This document shows positions 14,371 to 58,579 of a stretch of DNA of 62,236 nt, piece after piece. The notes beneath the pieces were generated by a model. The model worked only from the letters and a program-made list of their open reading frames with translations. It had not been told where the DNA came from and did no database searches. Location: the NCBI RefSeq assembly GCF_016900375.1, contig NZ_JACJKB010000014.1:1-62236 (forward strand), read 5' to 3'. Position 1 is the first letter of the stretch, and the number at the start of each line of letters is the position of its first letter. The stretch is from Collinsella tanakaei (GTDB lineage: Bacteria; Actinomycetota; Coriobacteriia; Coriobacteriales; Coriobacteriaceae). The translations under genes and the position numbers were made by a program.

Positions 14371-14547
14371 TCAAATTTGCGACTTTTGAGAGGGTTGCAT
14401 CGCGCCTCGATTGATTCGGTCATTGGTCATGTATACGCAATTCATCTGAACAGCGCATTTACGATCATGACTGCATAGAATTGAGACCCTCCAGACATTC
14501 AATCTACCCACCGTTCTTGTGAGGTATCTCAAAAGTCGCGAATTTGA
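14371..14547. repeat. MITE-like repeat, copy 1
   Basis: A 177-base AT-richer element in the convergent gap between the BASS and HAD genes. Its ends are inverted repeats: TCAAATTTGCGACTTTTGAG at the left and the inverse CTCAAAAGTCGCGAATTTGA at the right. A second copy lies at 28603-28777 and shares both ends and interior words such as CTGCATAGA. No transposase and no target duplication are seen. The rest of the 14268-14787 gap holds no gene. Confidence 0.85.
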
Positions 14548-14787
14548 CACTCAACCTGCCTCGCGTCGCTCTCTGCGGACAAACCACCTGCATAAAACAG
14601 GCTGCGCTAAGCCTTTTTGTGGATGCCTGACCGTCAGCCTCGCCTCGACCGTGCGCGGCCCGCCGAACAACCCCCGGCCGCAACACCCGTTACAGCCTAG
14701 CAAGCCCCGGCGGTGCGCCAAACAGCCCGCCAAGCGGATGCGCAACGACCGTTCAATGGCAGATCGTCCACTTGATACCGCGACGCG

Positions 14788-28602: not shown

Positions 28603-28777
28603 CAAATTCGCGACTTTTGAGAGGGTTGCAATCAGCCCGAAGTTGCTCGATCACACCGGCTGCATAGAGTTTTTAATTTACCTGCGTTAATGACGAATGT
28701 TTTGCATACTTTTGGATGTTTTGGCGCGGTCAGAAACCCACCGATTTGATGAGATATCTCAAAAGTCCCGGATTTGA
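28603..28777. repeat. MITE-like repeat, copy 2
   Basis: A 175-base element resembling the one at 14371-14547. Its left end is CCAAATTCGCGACTTTTGAG and its right end CTCAAAAGTCCCGGATTTGA; both copies also share AGAGGGTTGCA after the left end and CCCACCG before the right end. Like copy 1 it lies between convergent genes, here hom and the zincin gene. Confidence 0.85.
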
Positions 28778-28789
28778 CACCTCACCCGC

Positions 28790-28837
28790 AGGGCCACGGT
28801 TATATGCGGCGGAGTCGCCGCATATAACCGTGGCCCT
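28790..28837. repeat. Perfect 22-bp palindrome
   Basis: Arms of 22 bases (left arm starts AGGGCCACGGTTATATGCGG) around GAGT. No T-tract follows on either side. It lies 12 bases from the MITE-like element and 48 bases from the zincin stop; it may stop or stabilise transcripts from both directions. Confidence 0.85.
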
Positions 28838-28885
28838 GCCGTCAGATAATGAATCGCACCTGCCGGCAGCAGACGGCCGGCGTCC

Positions 28886-40954: not shown

Positions 40955-41069
40955 TCCCGCCCGCGAGCGACCCGTCAATCGACGGGCATGCGGGCGGGAG
41001 GACCCCTGCATCGAAACCATGGGTTTGTACCGTATAGAGGCTCTTAAACGGTACAAACCCATGGTTTCG
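40955..41069. repeat. Two hairpins between the cyclase gene and azlC
   Basis: The first (40955-41001) pairs CCCGCCCGC with GCGGGCGGG with a smaller inner stem. The second (41012-41069) has perfect 22-bp arms beginning CGAAACCATGGGTTTGTACC around a 14-base loop. Neither has a T-tract. Probably the 3' end of the cyclase transcript. Confidence 0.8.
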
Positions 41070-41189: not shown

Positions 41190-41933
41190 ATGCAGCCGAC
41201 AGGCACCAAGACGGCGGCCTTCAGGCAGGCGCTGCCGCTTTCCTTCCCTATCATGGTGGGATTCATCTTCCTCGGCATCACCTGCGGCATGTACGCGAGC
41301 TCGCTCGGCCTGCCCTGGTGGATGCCCACGTTCATGTCCATCGCCATCTTCGGCGGCTCGGCCGAGTTCGTCGTGGCGTCCATGCTGCCCGGCGTCTTCG
41401 ACCCGCTCACGACCTTCGCGGTGATCCTCGTCGTGCAGGCGCGCCATCTGTTCTACGGCCTATCGATGCTCAAGCCCTTCGCGGGCATGGGGCGCAAGAA
41501 GCCCTATCTCATCTACGCCCTATGCGATGAGTCGTTTTCCATCAACTACGGCGCCCATGTGCCCGAAAGAATCGACCGCGGCTGGTTCATGCTGTTCGTG
41601 AGCCTGCTCAACCAGGCCTCCTGGGTGCTCGGCTGCACACTGGGCGGCGTGTTCGGCAACATGATCCCCCTCGATATCGAGGGCATATCGTTTGCGATGA
41701 CGGCCCTGTGCGTCGTCATCTTCCTCGATCAGTGGCTGCAGGAGAAAAGCCACGTGAGCTCGCTTACCGGCCTCGCGGCGTCCGCGCTGGCGCTCGTCCT
41801 CTTCGGGGCGGACGGCTTTTTGATTCCCGCGATGCTGATCATCCTCGCCGTGATGGCCGTTCTACGACCGCGACTTGAAAGCATCTACAGCTCCGATGAC
41901 GCCCCCGCCGCGGACGGGAGCGGTGCCGCATGA
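41190..41933 (+). CDS. azlC: Branched-chain amino acid exporter AzlC
   Basis: Large subunit of the AzlCD exporter, 247 residues with seven or eight hydrophobic helices. Typical segments: ALPLSFPIMVGFIFLGITCG, GGSAEFVVASMLPGVFDPLT and ARHLFYGLSML. Together with AzlD it exports leucine analogues and excess branched-chain amino acids, opposing the Liv importer. Overlaps azlD by four bases (ATGA). Confidence 0.94.
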   Translation: MQPTGTKTAAFRQALPLSFPIMVGFIFLGITCGMYASSLGLPWWMPTFMSIAIFGGSAEFVVASMLPGVFDPLTTFAVILVVQARHLFYGLSMLKPFAGMGRKKPYLIYALCDESFSINYGAHVPERIDRGWFMLFVSLLNQASWVLGCTLGGVFGNMIPLDIEGISFAMTALCVVIFLDQWLQEKSHVSSLTGLAASALALVLFGADGFLIPAMLIILAVMAVLRPRLESIYSSDDAPAADGSGAA

Positions 41934-42250
41934 CGACGCTCCAGCAGATCGCCACCGTGCTCATCGCCGGCGCCGCCACCGTGCTCACGCGCTTCCTTCC
42001 CTTCTTCGCGTTCCGCCATGGTGCCCCTCGCTTCATCCGCTATCTCGGAGACGTGCTGCCCGGCGCCATCTTCGGCATGCTTGTAATCTACTGCCTGAAG
42101 GACGTTGACGTTCTTGCCGGGTCGCATGGCGCACCCGAGGCGATCGGCATCCTTGTCACCGGCGGCATCTACCTCTGGCGCCGCGACATGCTGTGGGCGA
42201 TCCTCACCGGCACCGCCTCCTACATGCTCCTCGTGAACCTTGTCTGGTGA
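41930..42250 (+). CDS. azlD: Branched-chain amino acid exporter AzlD
   Basis: Small membrane subunit of the exporter, 106 residues with three to four hydrophobic segments (TVLIAGAATVLTRFLPFFAF, LPGAIFGMLVIYCL). Start and azlC stop overlap as ATGA, so translation is coupled. Its TGA stop codon touches the left arm of a perfect 43-bp palindrome. Confidence 0.93.
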   Translation: MTTLQQIATVLIAGAATVLTRFLPFFAFRHGAPRFIRYLGDVLPGAIFGMLVIYCLKDVDVLAGSHGAPEAIGILVTGGIYLWRRDMLWAILTGTASYMLLVNLVW

Positions 42251-42338
42251 TGTCCATTTTCAGGACGGAGATGTTTTGGGACATTGCGCGGCGCACCGCG
42301 CAATGTCCCAAAACATCTCCGTCCTGAAAATGGACATC
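42249..42338. repeat. Perfect 43-bp palindrome abutting the azlD stop
   Basis: Two exact 43-base arms (left arm starts GATGTCCATTTTCAGGACGG and ends GGGACATTGCGCGG) around CGCA. The inner sequence TTTTCAGGACGGAGATGTTT also occurs, slightly changed, at 56385-56419 and 57508. No T-tract follows. It probably ends azlCD transcription and separates it from the HD gene. Confidence 0.95.
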
Positions 42339-49654: not shown

Positions 49655-49829
49655 CTGGCAAAAGTTGTAACTTGAGCATTTTTCTGGCACCCTATCACCC
49701 CGACAGACCGTCCTCTTTTCGCCTCGTTGAGGCTCAAATCGGGCTCTTTGGCATCCGAAAGCCTCCTGATTCGGTCATGGGGCTCGACCGAAAAATGCTC
49801 AAGTTACAATTCCTGCCAGTCAGCGGACC
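49655..49829. repeat. Element with 28-base inverted ends
   Basis: About 175 bases bounded by inverted repeats: left GTAACTTGAGCATTTTTC and right GAAAAATGCTCAAGTTAC, extended outward with a few mismatches (GGCAAAAGTT against AATTCCTGCC). It lies between convergent trmL and purF, like the two MITE-like copies, but the ends differ. The rest of 49600-50161 shows no gene. Confidence 0.8.
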
Positions 49830-55052: not shown

Positions 55053-55136
55053 CTGGCCTCTCTGGGGACGTAGCCGGAAGGCGCCAAGGGCCCGCGGCCC
55101 CTTGGCGCCTTCCGGCTACGCCCTCTGAGAGGCCAG
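55053..55136. repeat. Long GC-rich palindrome between yitT and the CAP gene
   Basis: Arms of about 38 bases with few bulges (left CTGGCCTCTCTGGGGACGTA..., right ending CCCTCTGAGAGGCCAG), one base after the yitT stop and 17 bases from the CAP stop. Likely a shared transcript end for two convergent genes. Confidence 0.85.
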
Positions 55137-56345: not shown

Positions 56346-56419
56346 AATGTCCCAAAACATCTCCGTCCCGAATGTGGACACGTATGTCCACTTTCAGGAC
56401 GGAGATGTTTCAGGACATT
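56346..56419. repeat. 35-bp-arm palindrome overlapping the dehydrogenase stop
   Basis: Two 35-base arms with four mismatches around CGTA. The right arm, TGTCCACTTTCAGGACGGAG and onward, matches the left arm of the azlD palindrome (42249-42338) except for a few bases, so the element is arranged inside-out compared with that copy. The dehydrogenase stop TGA (56410-56412) and last codons lie within the right arm. Confidence 0.92.
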
Positions 56420-57462
56420 GCGGGGGTGATGACCACCTTGAGGCAGTCGTCTTCGCGGGCCTCGAAAGCGCGGTACGCCTCGAGGATGTCGTCCAGCGGA
56501 TAGCGCTTGGAGATGAGCAGGCTCGTGTCGAGCTTGCCAGCCGCGATGAGGGCAATGACCTCATCGAGACCGGATGCGTCCACGCCACCGGTCTTGAAGA
56601 TGAGGTTCTTGCCGTACATCTGGGGCAGAGGCAGCGTCTGGTCCTGCTCGTACATGGCAGAAATCACCACGATGGCGTTGGGGCGGGCGATGCGCCAGGC
56701 CATCTCGAAGGTGTCGGGACCACCTGCTGCCTCGATGACGGCGTCCGCGCCGCGGCCGCACGTCGCCTCTTGCACGAGCGCCTCGACCTCGGTCTGGCTC
56801 TTCCCCGTCGGGTTGATGGCGATGTCGGCAAGCCCGTGGTCGACCGCGCGGCGCAGGCGAACCTCGTCGACGTCAAGAGCGATGATGCACCCGGGATTCG
56901 CCAGCCGCGCGCACATCATGGTCGTGAGACCGACCGGCCCCGCACCGATGACCGCGACGGAGGAGCCGGGCTCGATCTCCGCCAGGCGCACACCCCACCA
57001 GCCCGTTGCCAGGATATCGCCCAAGAAGAGCGCGTCCTCGTCGGAGACGCCATTGGGAATGCGCGTGAAGGCGTTGTCCGCCATCGGTACGCGGACGTAT
57101 TCGGCTTGGCAGCCGTCGATGGTGCAACCCAGCAGCCAGCCGCCGTGCTCGCAGTTGTTGACCCAACCGCGCTTGCAGAAGAAGCATTCACCGCAGAAGG
57201 TCTCGCAGTTGACGGCCACGCGGTCACCCGGCGAGAATCGCGTCACCCCCGAGCCGACTTCTTCGACCACCCCCACGAACTCGTGGCCGAGCACCGTATC
57301 GGGCAGCGCACGGGGAACGGCGCCGCGCATGATGTGGAGGTCGCTCGTGCAGATGGTCGAGCGCGTCACGCGCACGATGGCGTCAGTCGGCTCCTGCAGC
57401 TTCGGACGCGGGCGCTCGAGCAGCGCGATGTTTCCGTGACCGTCATGCACCAGTGCCTTCAC
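56410..57462 (-). CDS. Zinc-binding medium-chain alcohol dehydrogenase
   Basis: A 350-residue MDR-type dehydrogenase. The catalytic zinc ligands are in TICTSDLH and LGHEFVGVVEEVGSG, the structural zinc cysteines in CETFCGECFFCKRGWVNNC, and the nucleotide fold in AVIGAGPVGLTTM. It could act on secondary alcohols, sorbitol-like polyols or threonine. The GTG start at 57462 (VKALVHDG...) is chosen because homologues start there with MKAL and GGAGG lies five bases upstream. The last residues MS and the stop are encoded by the palindrome. Confidence 0.92.
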   Translation of the reverse strand: MKALVHDGHGNIALLERPRPKLQEPTDAIVRVTRSTICTSDLHIMRGAVPRALPDTVLGHEFVGVVEEVGSGVTRFSPGDRVAVNCETFCGECFFCKRGWVNNCEHGGWLLGCTIDGCQAEYVRVPMADNAFTRIPNGVSDEDALFLGDILATGWWGVRLAEIEPGSSVAVIGAGPVGLTTMMCARLANPGCIIALDVDEVRLRRAVDHGLADIAINPTGKSQTEVEALVQEATCGRGADAVIEAAGGPDTFEMAWRIARPNAIVVISAMYEQDQTLPLPQMYGKNLIFKTGGVDASGLDEVIALIAAGKLDTSLLISKRYPLDDILEAYRAFEAREDDCLKVVITPAMS

Positions 57463-57507
57463 ATTGACCTCCCCTGCAACGAGACCCCTCAATTGTACTC
57501 GGCACGA

Positions 57508-57562
57508 TGTCCACTTTCAGGACGAAGCGGCCTCGCTGGCACCTCCGTGCTGAAAGCGGACC
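57508..57562. repeat. Degenerate copy of the palindromic motif at the dus stop
   Basis: TGTCCACTTTCAGGACG, identical to the start of the 56385 arm, is followed after 18 bases by CTCCGTGCTGAAAGCGGAC, its imperfect inverse. The right end abuts the dus stop codon (57563). Confidence 0.8.
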
Positions 57563-58579
57563 TCAGCTGAAGATCTTTGCTATGGCAGCTTGGTAGTCGG
57601 GTATGGTACGGACCTTCCTAACGGCGCGGTGGACCGTCTGCGGGTCGTCGAACGCGTGCTGGGCGTAGGACCACCACTCCTTCATGCGGAAGACCGCATT
57701 GCCGCCCATCTGCCCCTCATAGGCGCAGAACAGCTTGTCGTGGAAGCGCTTGAGCTCGTCAAGCGTGAGCGCCGGACCGCCGTGCAGCATACGCGCCAAC
57801 GCCGGGTTGTACAGAAGCCCGCGGCCCAGCATCACATGACGCGTCTCTGGATACGCCGCAAGCAGCGCATCCATGTCGTCGCAGGTAAAGATATCGCCGT
57901 TGTACGCCACGGGAAACGACGCACGGCGCAGGGTCTCGCCATAGGACTCCCAGCGCGGCTTGCCGCGATAGAAATCTTTCCGCACGCGCGGATGTACGAT
58001 GAGCTCGGCCAAGGGATGACGACAGTACATCTCGAGAATCGCCTCGTACTCCTCATCGCGCGCGATGCCAATGCGCGTCTTGACCGACGCCGGCAGCGGG
58101 GACCTATCGCACACCTCGCTCAAAAATGCATCGAGCGCATCCAGATCGCGCAGAAAGCCCGCTCCCCTGCCCTTGCCGACAACCGTGCCCGACGGGCAGC
58201 CGACGTTCAGGTTGACCTCGCGGTAGCCCATCTTCGCCAGAAGCTCGGCGGCCCATACGAACTCATCAGCATTCTTGGTGAGCAGCTGCGGCACGACGTC
58301 GAGCCCCTGGTTGTTGGCCGGATCGACCTCCCCGCAATCGCGCTTGCCGAACGAGCTGCCCACGCGCGGCGGCGTGAGAAACGGCGTGTAGTAGCGGTCG
58401 AGCGCACCGAAGCACTCCGCGTGAATCCGACGGAAGGTGTGGCCGGTCAACCCCTCCATAGGGGCAAGTGACAGCAGCGGCATGCGCGGGCGATCCGCAC
58501 CCCCAAGTTGCGCGGTAGCACCTGCCACCGGCATAGGCGAAAAACCAGATTCGTTTTCCAGCGCGGCGCAGTTCTCCAT
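57563..58579 (-). CDS. dus: tRNA-dihydrouridine synthase family protein
   Basis: FMN enzyme that reduces uridines in tRNA D loops. Of 338 residues, homology starts near 33 (PLLSLAPMEGLTGHTFRRIH). Other motifs: LNVGCPSGTVVGKGRGAG with the catalytic cysteine, VKTRIG, LIVHPRVRKDFYRGKPRW and YNGDIFTCDD, then VMLGRGLLYNP for FMN phosphate. The fusion-free, single-domain layout resembles DusC/DusB-like members of Firmicutes. The first 30 residues are non-conserved, and a later start is possible. Confidence 0.9.
   Translation of the reverse strand: MENCAALENESGFSPMPVAGATAQLGGADRPRMPLLSLAPMEGLTGHTFRRIHAECFGALDRYYTPFLTPPRVGSSFGKRDCGEVDPANNQGLDVVPQLLTKNADEFVWAAELLAKMGYREVNLNVGCPSGTVVGKGRGAGFLRDLDALDAFLSEVCDRSPLPASVKTRIGIARDEEYEAILEMYCRHPLAELIVHPRVRKDFYRGKPRWESYGETLRRASFPVAYNGDIFTCDDMDALLAAYPETRHVMLGRGLLYNPALARMLHGGPALTLDELKRFHDKLFCAYEGQMGGNAVFRMKEWWSYAQHAFDDPQTVHRAVRKVRTIPDYQAAIAKIFS

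Follow-up and report, generated by a model that had tools for sequence, protein, structure and literature searches.

Half-units of a palindromic motif are dispersed through the genome

In a 62,236-nt stretch of Collinsella tanakaei DNA (the whole stretch is called the window below), a palindrome runs into the 3' end of an alcohol dehydrogenase gene, raising the question of whether such palindromes serve to close genes or are mobile repeats, and, if they are mobile, whether the whole palindrome or half of it is what spreads. We searched for the 20-mer behind a dispersed motif proposed in an earlier note on this DNA (TTTTCAGGACGGAGATGTTT, up to 3 mismatches) and found four matches in the window (42257+, 42311-, 56355- and 56391+), compared with 0.01 expected from shuffles. 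Genome-wide, the same search gave 70 matches, 32 forward and 38 reverse, while the reversed-pattern control gave 1 and 0, confirming that the motif is real. The repeated unit is longer than the 20-mer: it spans about 33 nt, TGTCCACTTTCA-GGACGGAGA-TGTTTTCGGACA, and is a half-palindrome with the ends TGTCC...GGACA and a 9-nt centre, GGACGGAGA. We named it family A, all repeat-family letters being labels assigned in this analysis. Positions 13-23 of its consensus, TGTCCACTTTCAGGACGGAGATGTTTTCGGACA, are conserved at 97-100%, a value inflated by the search itself, which used that core.

Units were counted by a plain mismatch scan (up to 8 mismatches in 33) of the window and of 42 stretches around the genome-wide matches, and two units on opposite strands were taken as a pair when fewer than 350 nt separated them; earlier fuzzy-regex scans had missed copies, and the unit counts rest on the plain scan. 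The scan yielded 71 units in 54 elements, namely 37 single units, 15 '+-' pairs and 2 '-+' pairs, which occupy intergenic DNA either singly or as inverted pairs forming long hairpins. Two of the 37 singles lie at contig ends and resemble the arms of one broken element. Two contig ends, L037:1-112 and L047:2000-2111, carry the same A-B-E arm, and a palindrome of this kind seems to have interrupted the assembly there.

The two arms of a pair differ by a mean of only 1.47 of 33 letters and are identical in 10 of the 17 pairs, whereas the left arms of different pairs differ by 3.94 of 33, and none of 20,000 re-pairings reached the within-pair value. A rare variant, represented by the right arm TGAAAGTGGACA at L023, is predicted to form a 12-bp stem with the 9-nt loop GGACGGAGA (z -6.6). 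The common unit alone, however, was predicted to fold no better than shuffles (z -1.0; 36 of 200 as good), and the predicted loops of units from sister families vary in size; we therefore refer to the nine shared letters as a centre rather than as a loop.

Family A elements at gene ends in the window

The window holds three copies at gene ends, those of azlD, the dehydrogenase gene (adh) and dus, as the earlier note had reported (Table 1). Element 1 has 43-nt arms that are 100% complementary and two identical units, and its predicted fold as DNA reaches -57.8 kcal/mol (z -17). Element 2 has 35-nt arms, 89% complementary, and a fold z of -10. The arm order is indeed opposite at the two sites, '+-' at azlD (42251-42336) and '-+' at adh (56348-56417).

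Table 1. Palindromic elements of the window and the genes next to its family A copies
Feature	Position	Strand	Units or stop codon	Remark
Palindromic element 1 (A+ A-)	42249..42338		units 42251-42283 (+), 42304-42336 (-)	3' end of azlD
azlD	41930..42250	+	TGA at 42248-42250	ORF, PF05437
Family B palindrome (B+ B-)	55054..55135			sister family tied to transposase gene of L054
Palindromic element 2 (A- A+)	56346..56419		units 56348-56380 (-), 56385-56417 (+)	3' end of adh
Zn-dependent alcohol dehydrogenase (adh)	56410..57492	-	stop 56410-56412	ORF, Pfam ADH domains
Decayed family A pair	57508..57562		units 57508-57524, 57546-57562	abuts dus stop
dus	57563..58579	-	stop 57563-57565	ORF, PF01207

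We compared these gene ends with those of the nearest genome found (G029, in which two window regions match at 85-86%) and of another relative (G039). The final codons of adh, ATG TCC TGA, sit within the outer arm of element 2, so that the Met-Ser-stop noted previously was borne out. Both relatives end in VITPWE-stop and the window in VITP-AMS-stop; judged from this comparison, the adh stop was supplied by element 2, whose arm replaced the native WE-stop. At azlD, the last two bases of the TGA are common to the element 1 palindrome, yet the codon lies just outside the 33-nt unit, and the gene ends in the same final Trp followed by TGA in the window, TAA in G029 and TAG in G039. The dus copy is decayed and is the weakest of the three. 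Its right unit has 11 mismatches in 33, while the same scan gave three chance-like matches at 10-11 mismatches; support comes from the facing left arm, TGTCCACTTTCAGGACG, which exactly matches the first 17 letters of the family A unit. The dus product ends in FS-stop in the window and in FSQK-stop in G029.

Stop codons are rarely supplied by family A

We asked how often the situation at adh recurs. Among the 53 family A elements with both neighbouring genes called, a stop lies inside a unit in one (adh), and three (at azlD, L014 and L038) abut a stop with no gap. Tandem gaps made up 34 of the 53 gaps with family A and 74 of 112 others (Fisher P 0.86; the control gaps were drawn using an older unit set), and the tandem, convergent and divergent shares were alike. 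On the 3' sides of genes, however, 13 of 49 element sides lay within 10 nt of a stop (6.6 expected, P 0.005; 18 of 54 when five sides whose called gene overlaps the element by more than 20 nt, excluded here, are included), compared with 1 of 52 5' sides, for which the gene starts are unsure, as the calls come from a home-made caller. The earlier note had named random placement relative to genes as a refuting outcome; gap orientation agrees with that outcome in part, being ordinary, but placement within gaps is skewed towards the stop side. We read this excess as tolerance of insertion on the 3' side, which may be joined by mild targeting. The proposal that the motif supplies stop codons holds at adh but not as a rule: genome-wide, stop supply by family A is uncommon and a side product. 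On the genome-wide stop and gap counts, we rejected the idea that family A serves chiefly as a stop-codon device. Stop codons supplied by REPs have already been published, for GTAG REPs, in the sections of Di Nocera et al. 2013 (PMC3733652) consulted.

Family A is private to one species among the genomes searched

The 19-base core of family A (up to 1 mismatch) occurs in 63 copies in its own genome and in none of 42 other genomes of the genus; among 395 genomes of the order it is present only in its own (0 of 394 others). Wider genome contigs gave three single exact matches, in Prevotellaceae, Delongbacteria and Tannerella MAGs, a number that chance could give. Family A had no match in viral contigs, and element 1 had none in plasmids or phages. 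Family A is accordingly species-private among the genomes searched. In G029 and G039 the azlD and adh sites are without a family A element, a comparison that is between species. The intergenic DNA of relatives did not align in two further stretches compared, so that exact insertion points are readable in relatives only at gene ends. Other palindromes, with different sequences, lie in the same intergenic gaps of G029 and G039 (L125, L157, L162).

Sister repeat families flank RAYT genes

A PF01797 search found four Y1 transposase genes in the genome, and a profile built from eight RAYTs revealed no fifth. The best hit of all four was NF047646 (REP-associated tyrosine transposase), with 80.6, 75.4, 53.5 and 51.0 bits, of which one passes the cut-off of 80 bits. 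Eight aligned proteins (the four of this genome and four relatives) all share the HUH histidines and the Tyr. A different palindromic unit flanks each RAYT gene: family C at L052, B at L054, F at L051 and H at L053. These flanking units have a GGAC/GGCC centre, their central letters being GGACAGGTC, GGACGTAGC, GGCCTGAGG and GGCCAGGTA, to be compared with GGACGGAGA in family A. At L052, the family C transposase gene also lies between inverted 166-nt copies (1232-1397 and 2220-2385, 99% complementary), each carrying a tRNA-Ala (GGC) gene and a C unit.

We then surveyed 33 Y1 loci, 4 from this genome and 29 from a search of the genus, and found an ORF in 29. An inverted unit was present on both sides of 11 of these 29 genes, with the centre read as GGAC or GGCC in 11 of 11; this search had no shuffled control and some loci are orthologues. 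No inverted unit was seen beside the other 18, six or more of which are short IS200-like genes. Family B has 123 exact 12-base cores in this genome, and none of 41 genus-mates has more than 5. Between the rare A variant and the L054 copy of the B unit, 22 of 33 letters agree (1 in 200,000 shuffles was as good), and the common A and B forms agree in 18 of 33.

None of the four Y1 genes is flanked by family A. In two stretches where A units stand far apart, the six proteins encoded between them include no transposase; their matches are to flavodoxin, DUF3793, an HMA domain, a DPBB/lytic-transglycolase domain, peptidase M24 and zinc ribbons.

Repeat families are nested, often around shared centres

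Family A lies close to the transposase-linked families. A unit of another family was found within 130 nt of 35 of the 54 A elements, compared with 9 of 110 A-free gaps drawn with the newer unit set (P 5e-14), and 8 of the 17 A pairs enclose a unit of another family. The orders A+ B+ C+ C- B-, A+ B+ B- A- and A+ C+ C- A- recur. In 12 pairs the nesting is direct: 8 of them are exactly centred, the left and right distances being equal, and 4 are off-centre; the centred ones have identical locus-specific stems where a stem exists, and two have no stem between. At least two further palindromic bases flank 11 of the 17 A pairs and 5 of the 37 single A units. A tentative reading, possible although on the unlikely side, is that this lineage's RAYT-class elements enter palindromes already present at their centre and that the families have come to be stacked in this way, A enclosing B and B enclosing C or E. 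Single-stranded hairpin loops would then be the target, and the half-unit the moving packet. Nesting as such is not new: REP dimers inside other palindromes have been described (PMC3733652, sections consulted). Exact centring across several RAYT-linked families was not met in the parts of the literature examined. Among the papers listed by our literature search, none was on this group of bacteria or on nesting of this kind, and in the portions of two papers searched by term neither Collinsella nor Coriobacter is named.

Single units, pairs and known repeat systems

The earlier note had suggested that the half-unit, and not the whole palindrome, is what spreads. If single units were remnants of pairs, they should be more decayed. 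Single A units, however, showed a mean of 1.81 mismatches to the consensus and paired units 2.06 (single-minus-pair difference larger in 16,325 of 20,000 permutations), and singles do not, for that reason, look like remnants; strongly decayed singles may be under-counted here, since the search favoured intact cores. Partner remnants were detected beside 11 of the 37 single units at p 0.01, and these are mostly B pairs. The half-unit proposal fares well in that 37 of 54 elements are lone, both pair orders exist and singles are conserved, and less well in that decayed singles could escape the search. Conservation of the single units favours the half-unit idea, although deletion of a partner without decay could leave the same picture. 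Inversion by recombination, the other explanation put forward for the two arm orders, is not needed, as head-to-head and tail-to-tail dimers are both usual in REP families (PMC3733652, sections consulted).

The closest published layout is that of the TIRtrons, in which RAYT-like (TIRYT) genes are enclosed by inverted repeats, some of them self-complementary, and whose TIR families have single and dimeric copies elsewhere in the genome (PMC3733652); in the part of PMC6006769 consulted, TIRYT genes largely correspond to TnpA-REP subclass 2.1, or RAYT group 1. The RAYT loci of this genome are laid out alike, with families B, C, F and H flanking Y1/HUH genes in inverted orientation, and they probably belong to TnpA-REP subclass 2.1. 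Some, not all, published TIRs share the motif GGGGWSAS (PMC3733652); judged by eye, family C (GGGGACAG) fits it and family A, with CAGGACGG at that place, does not. Family A resembles TIRs in its dispersed single (37) and dimeric (17 pairs) copies, and differs in flanking no Y1/HUH transposase gene (0 of 4) and in nesting, often centred, with families B, C, D and E.

With the REPs and BIMEs that carry GTAG or CGTC tags, family A shares palindromic intergenic units of 20-40 nt, both dimer types and a link to RAYTs (PMC3733652). It has no unpaired end tag, beginning with TGTCC and ending with GGACA, and GTAG (in family B) and GGAG (in family A) are central in the unit, not terminal. The CGTC families have no transposase link in the sections of PMC3733652 consulted, and one strand of family A does contain CGTC, though in the centre of the unit. 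REPINs, as described in the parts of PMC3116915 consulted, likewise form hairpins from inverted pairs in extragenic space and are linked to RAYTs, and the 17 A pairs have the foldable spacer, as in elements 1 and 2. They predict decayed singles, however, whereas the singles of family A predominate and are as conserved as paired units. Lacking a flanked transposase, GGGGWSAS, an end tag and REPIN-like decay, family A probably works like these known repeats but is not counted as a member of any of them.

Family A as a repeat probably moved in trans

These comparisons argue that family A is a species-private, non-autonomous palindromic mobile repeat of the REP/TIR type, probably moved in trans by a RAYT, a reading to which we assign a probability of roughly 0.7. 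The best candidate enzyme would be the product of the gene flanked by family B. A RAYT would cut and join the family A unit as single-stranded DNA, and template switching would keep both arms of a locus alike, a process that is described as homogenising inverted-repeat arms in the part of PMC8604942 consulted. Copies beside stops would persist since the 3' side of genes tolerates insertions, and occasionally the arm of an inserted copy would supply the last codons and the stop. Loop and stem irregularities are reported to aid recognition besides GTAG (PMC8266576, part consulted), and recognition by way of the central letters is therefore plausible.

Two other accounts were weighed, and we regard each as rather improbable. 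Under the REPIN model, only the inverted pair is mobile, and a lone half-unit is what is left of a pair that broke. This would accommodate the near-identical arms of the 17 pairs and some single A units beside B pairs in which a portion of the second palindrome arm survives (most clearly at L045), and Pseudomonas REPINs behave in this way (PMC3116915, parts consulted); the predominance of singles and their lack of additional decay speak against it. Alternatively, family A may have moved with a non-RAYT transposase or with a RAYT since lost, its likeness to RAYT-linked units being convergence. The absence of any gene flanked by family A, and of a transposase among the six proteins between A units, is in keeping with this account, while the match to RAYT-linked units in length class, centre motif and nesting is not.

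Much less probable still is that family A is a functional 3'-end device, such as a terminator, an mRNA stabiliser or a stop supplier, under selection and not a mobile repeat. The stop-side excess and the strong predicted folding of the pairs would suit such a device. Against it, the family is absent from the other genomes searched in the order, its gaps are oriented as other gaps are, the azlD, adh and dus orthologues end without the element, and its copies are embedded among transposase-linked repeats.

This one genome combines four RAYT genes, to each of which a separate unit family belongs, with a fifth abundant family that has no enzyme, and its nested insertions record their order. Direct tests of trans-mobilisation, of centre targeting and of the homogenisation of arms are possible in such a genome. 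To our knowledge, the spread of REP-type repeats is still an open question, the enzymes being known and their movement having rarely been watched.

Other repeats in the window and beside family A

Besides the named families, the window contains a 54-nt direct repeat (14506-14559 and 28736-28789, 80% alike), whose second copy is followed by a perfect palindrome with 24-nt arms at 28788-28839, and further strong inverted repeats, belonging to none of the named families, at 41012-41069 and 49655-49819. AT-rich hairpins, approximately TTCCGAGAATATATATATTCTCGG, adjoin A units at L031:2010-2288 and L043:3765-4000. Family D, with 17-nt units (TGTGCGC...GGAACA), forms '++--' groups beside A and B and recurs in L010, L018, L022, L023, L033, L042 and L046.
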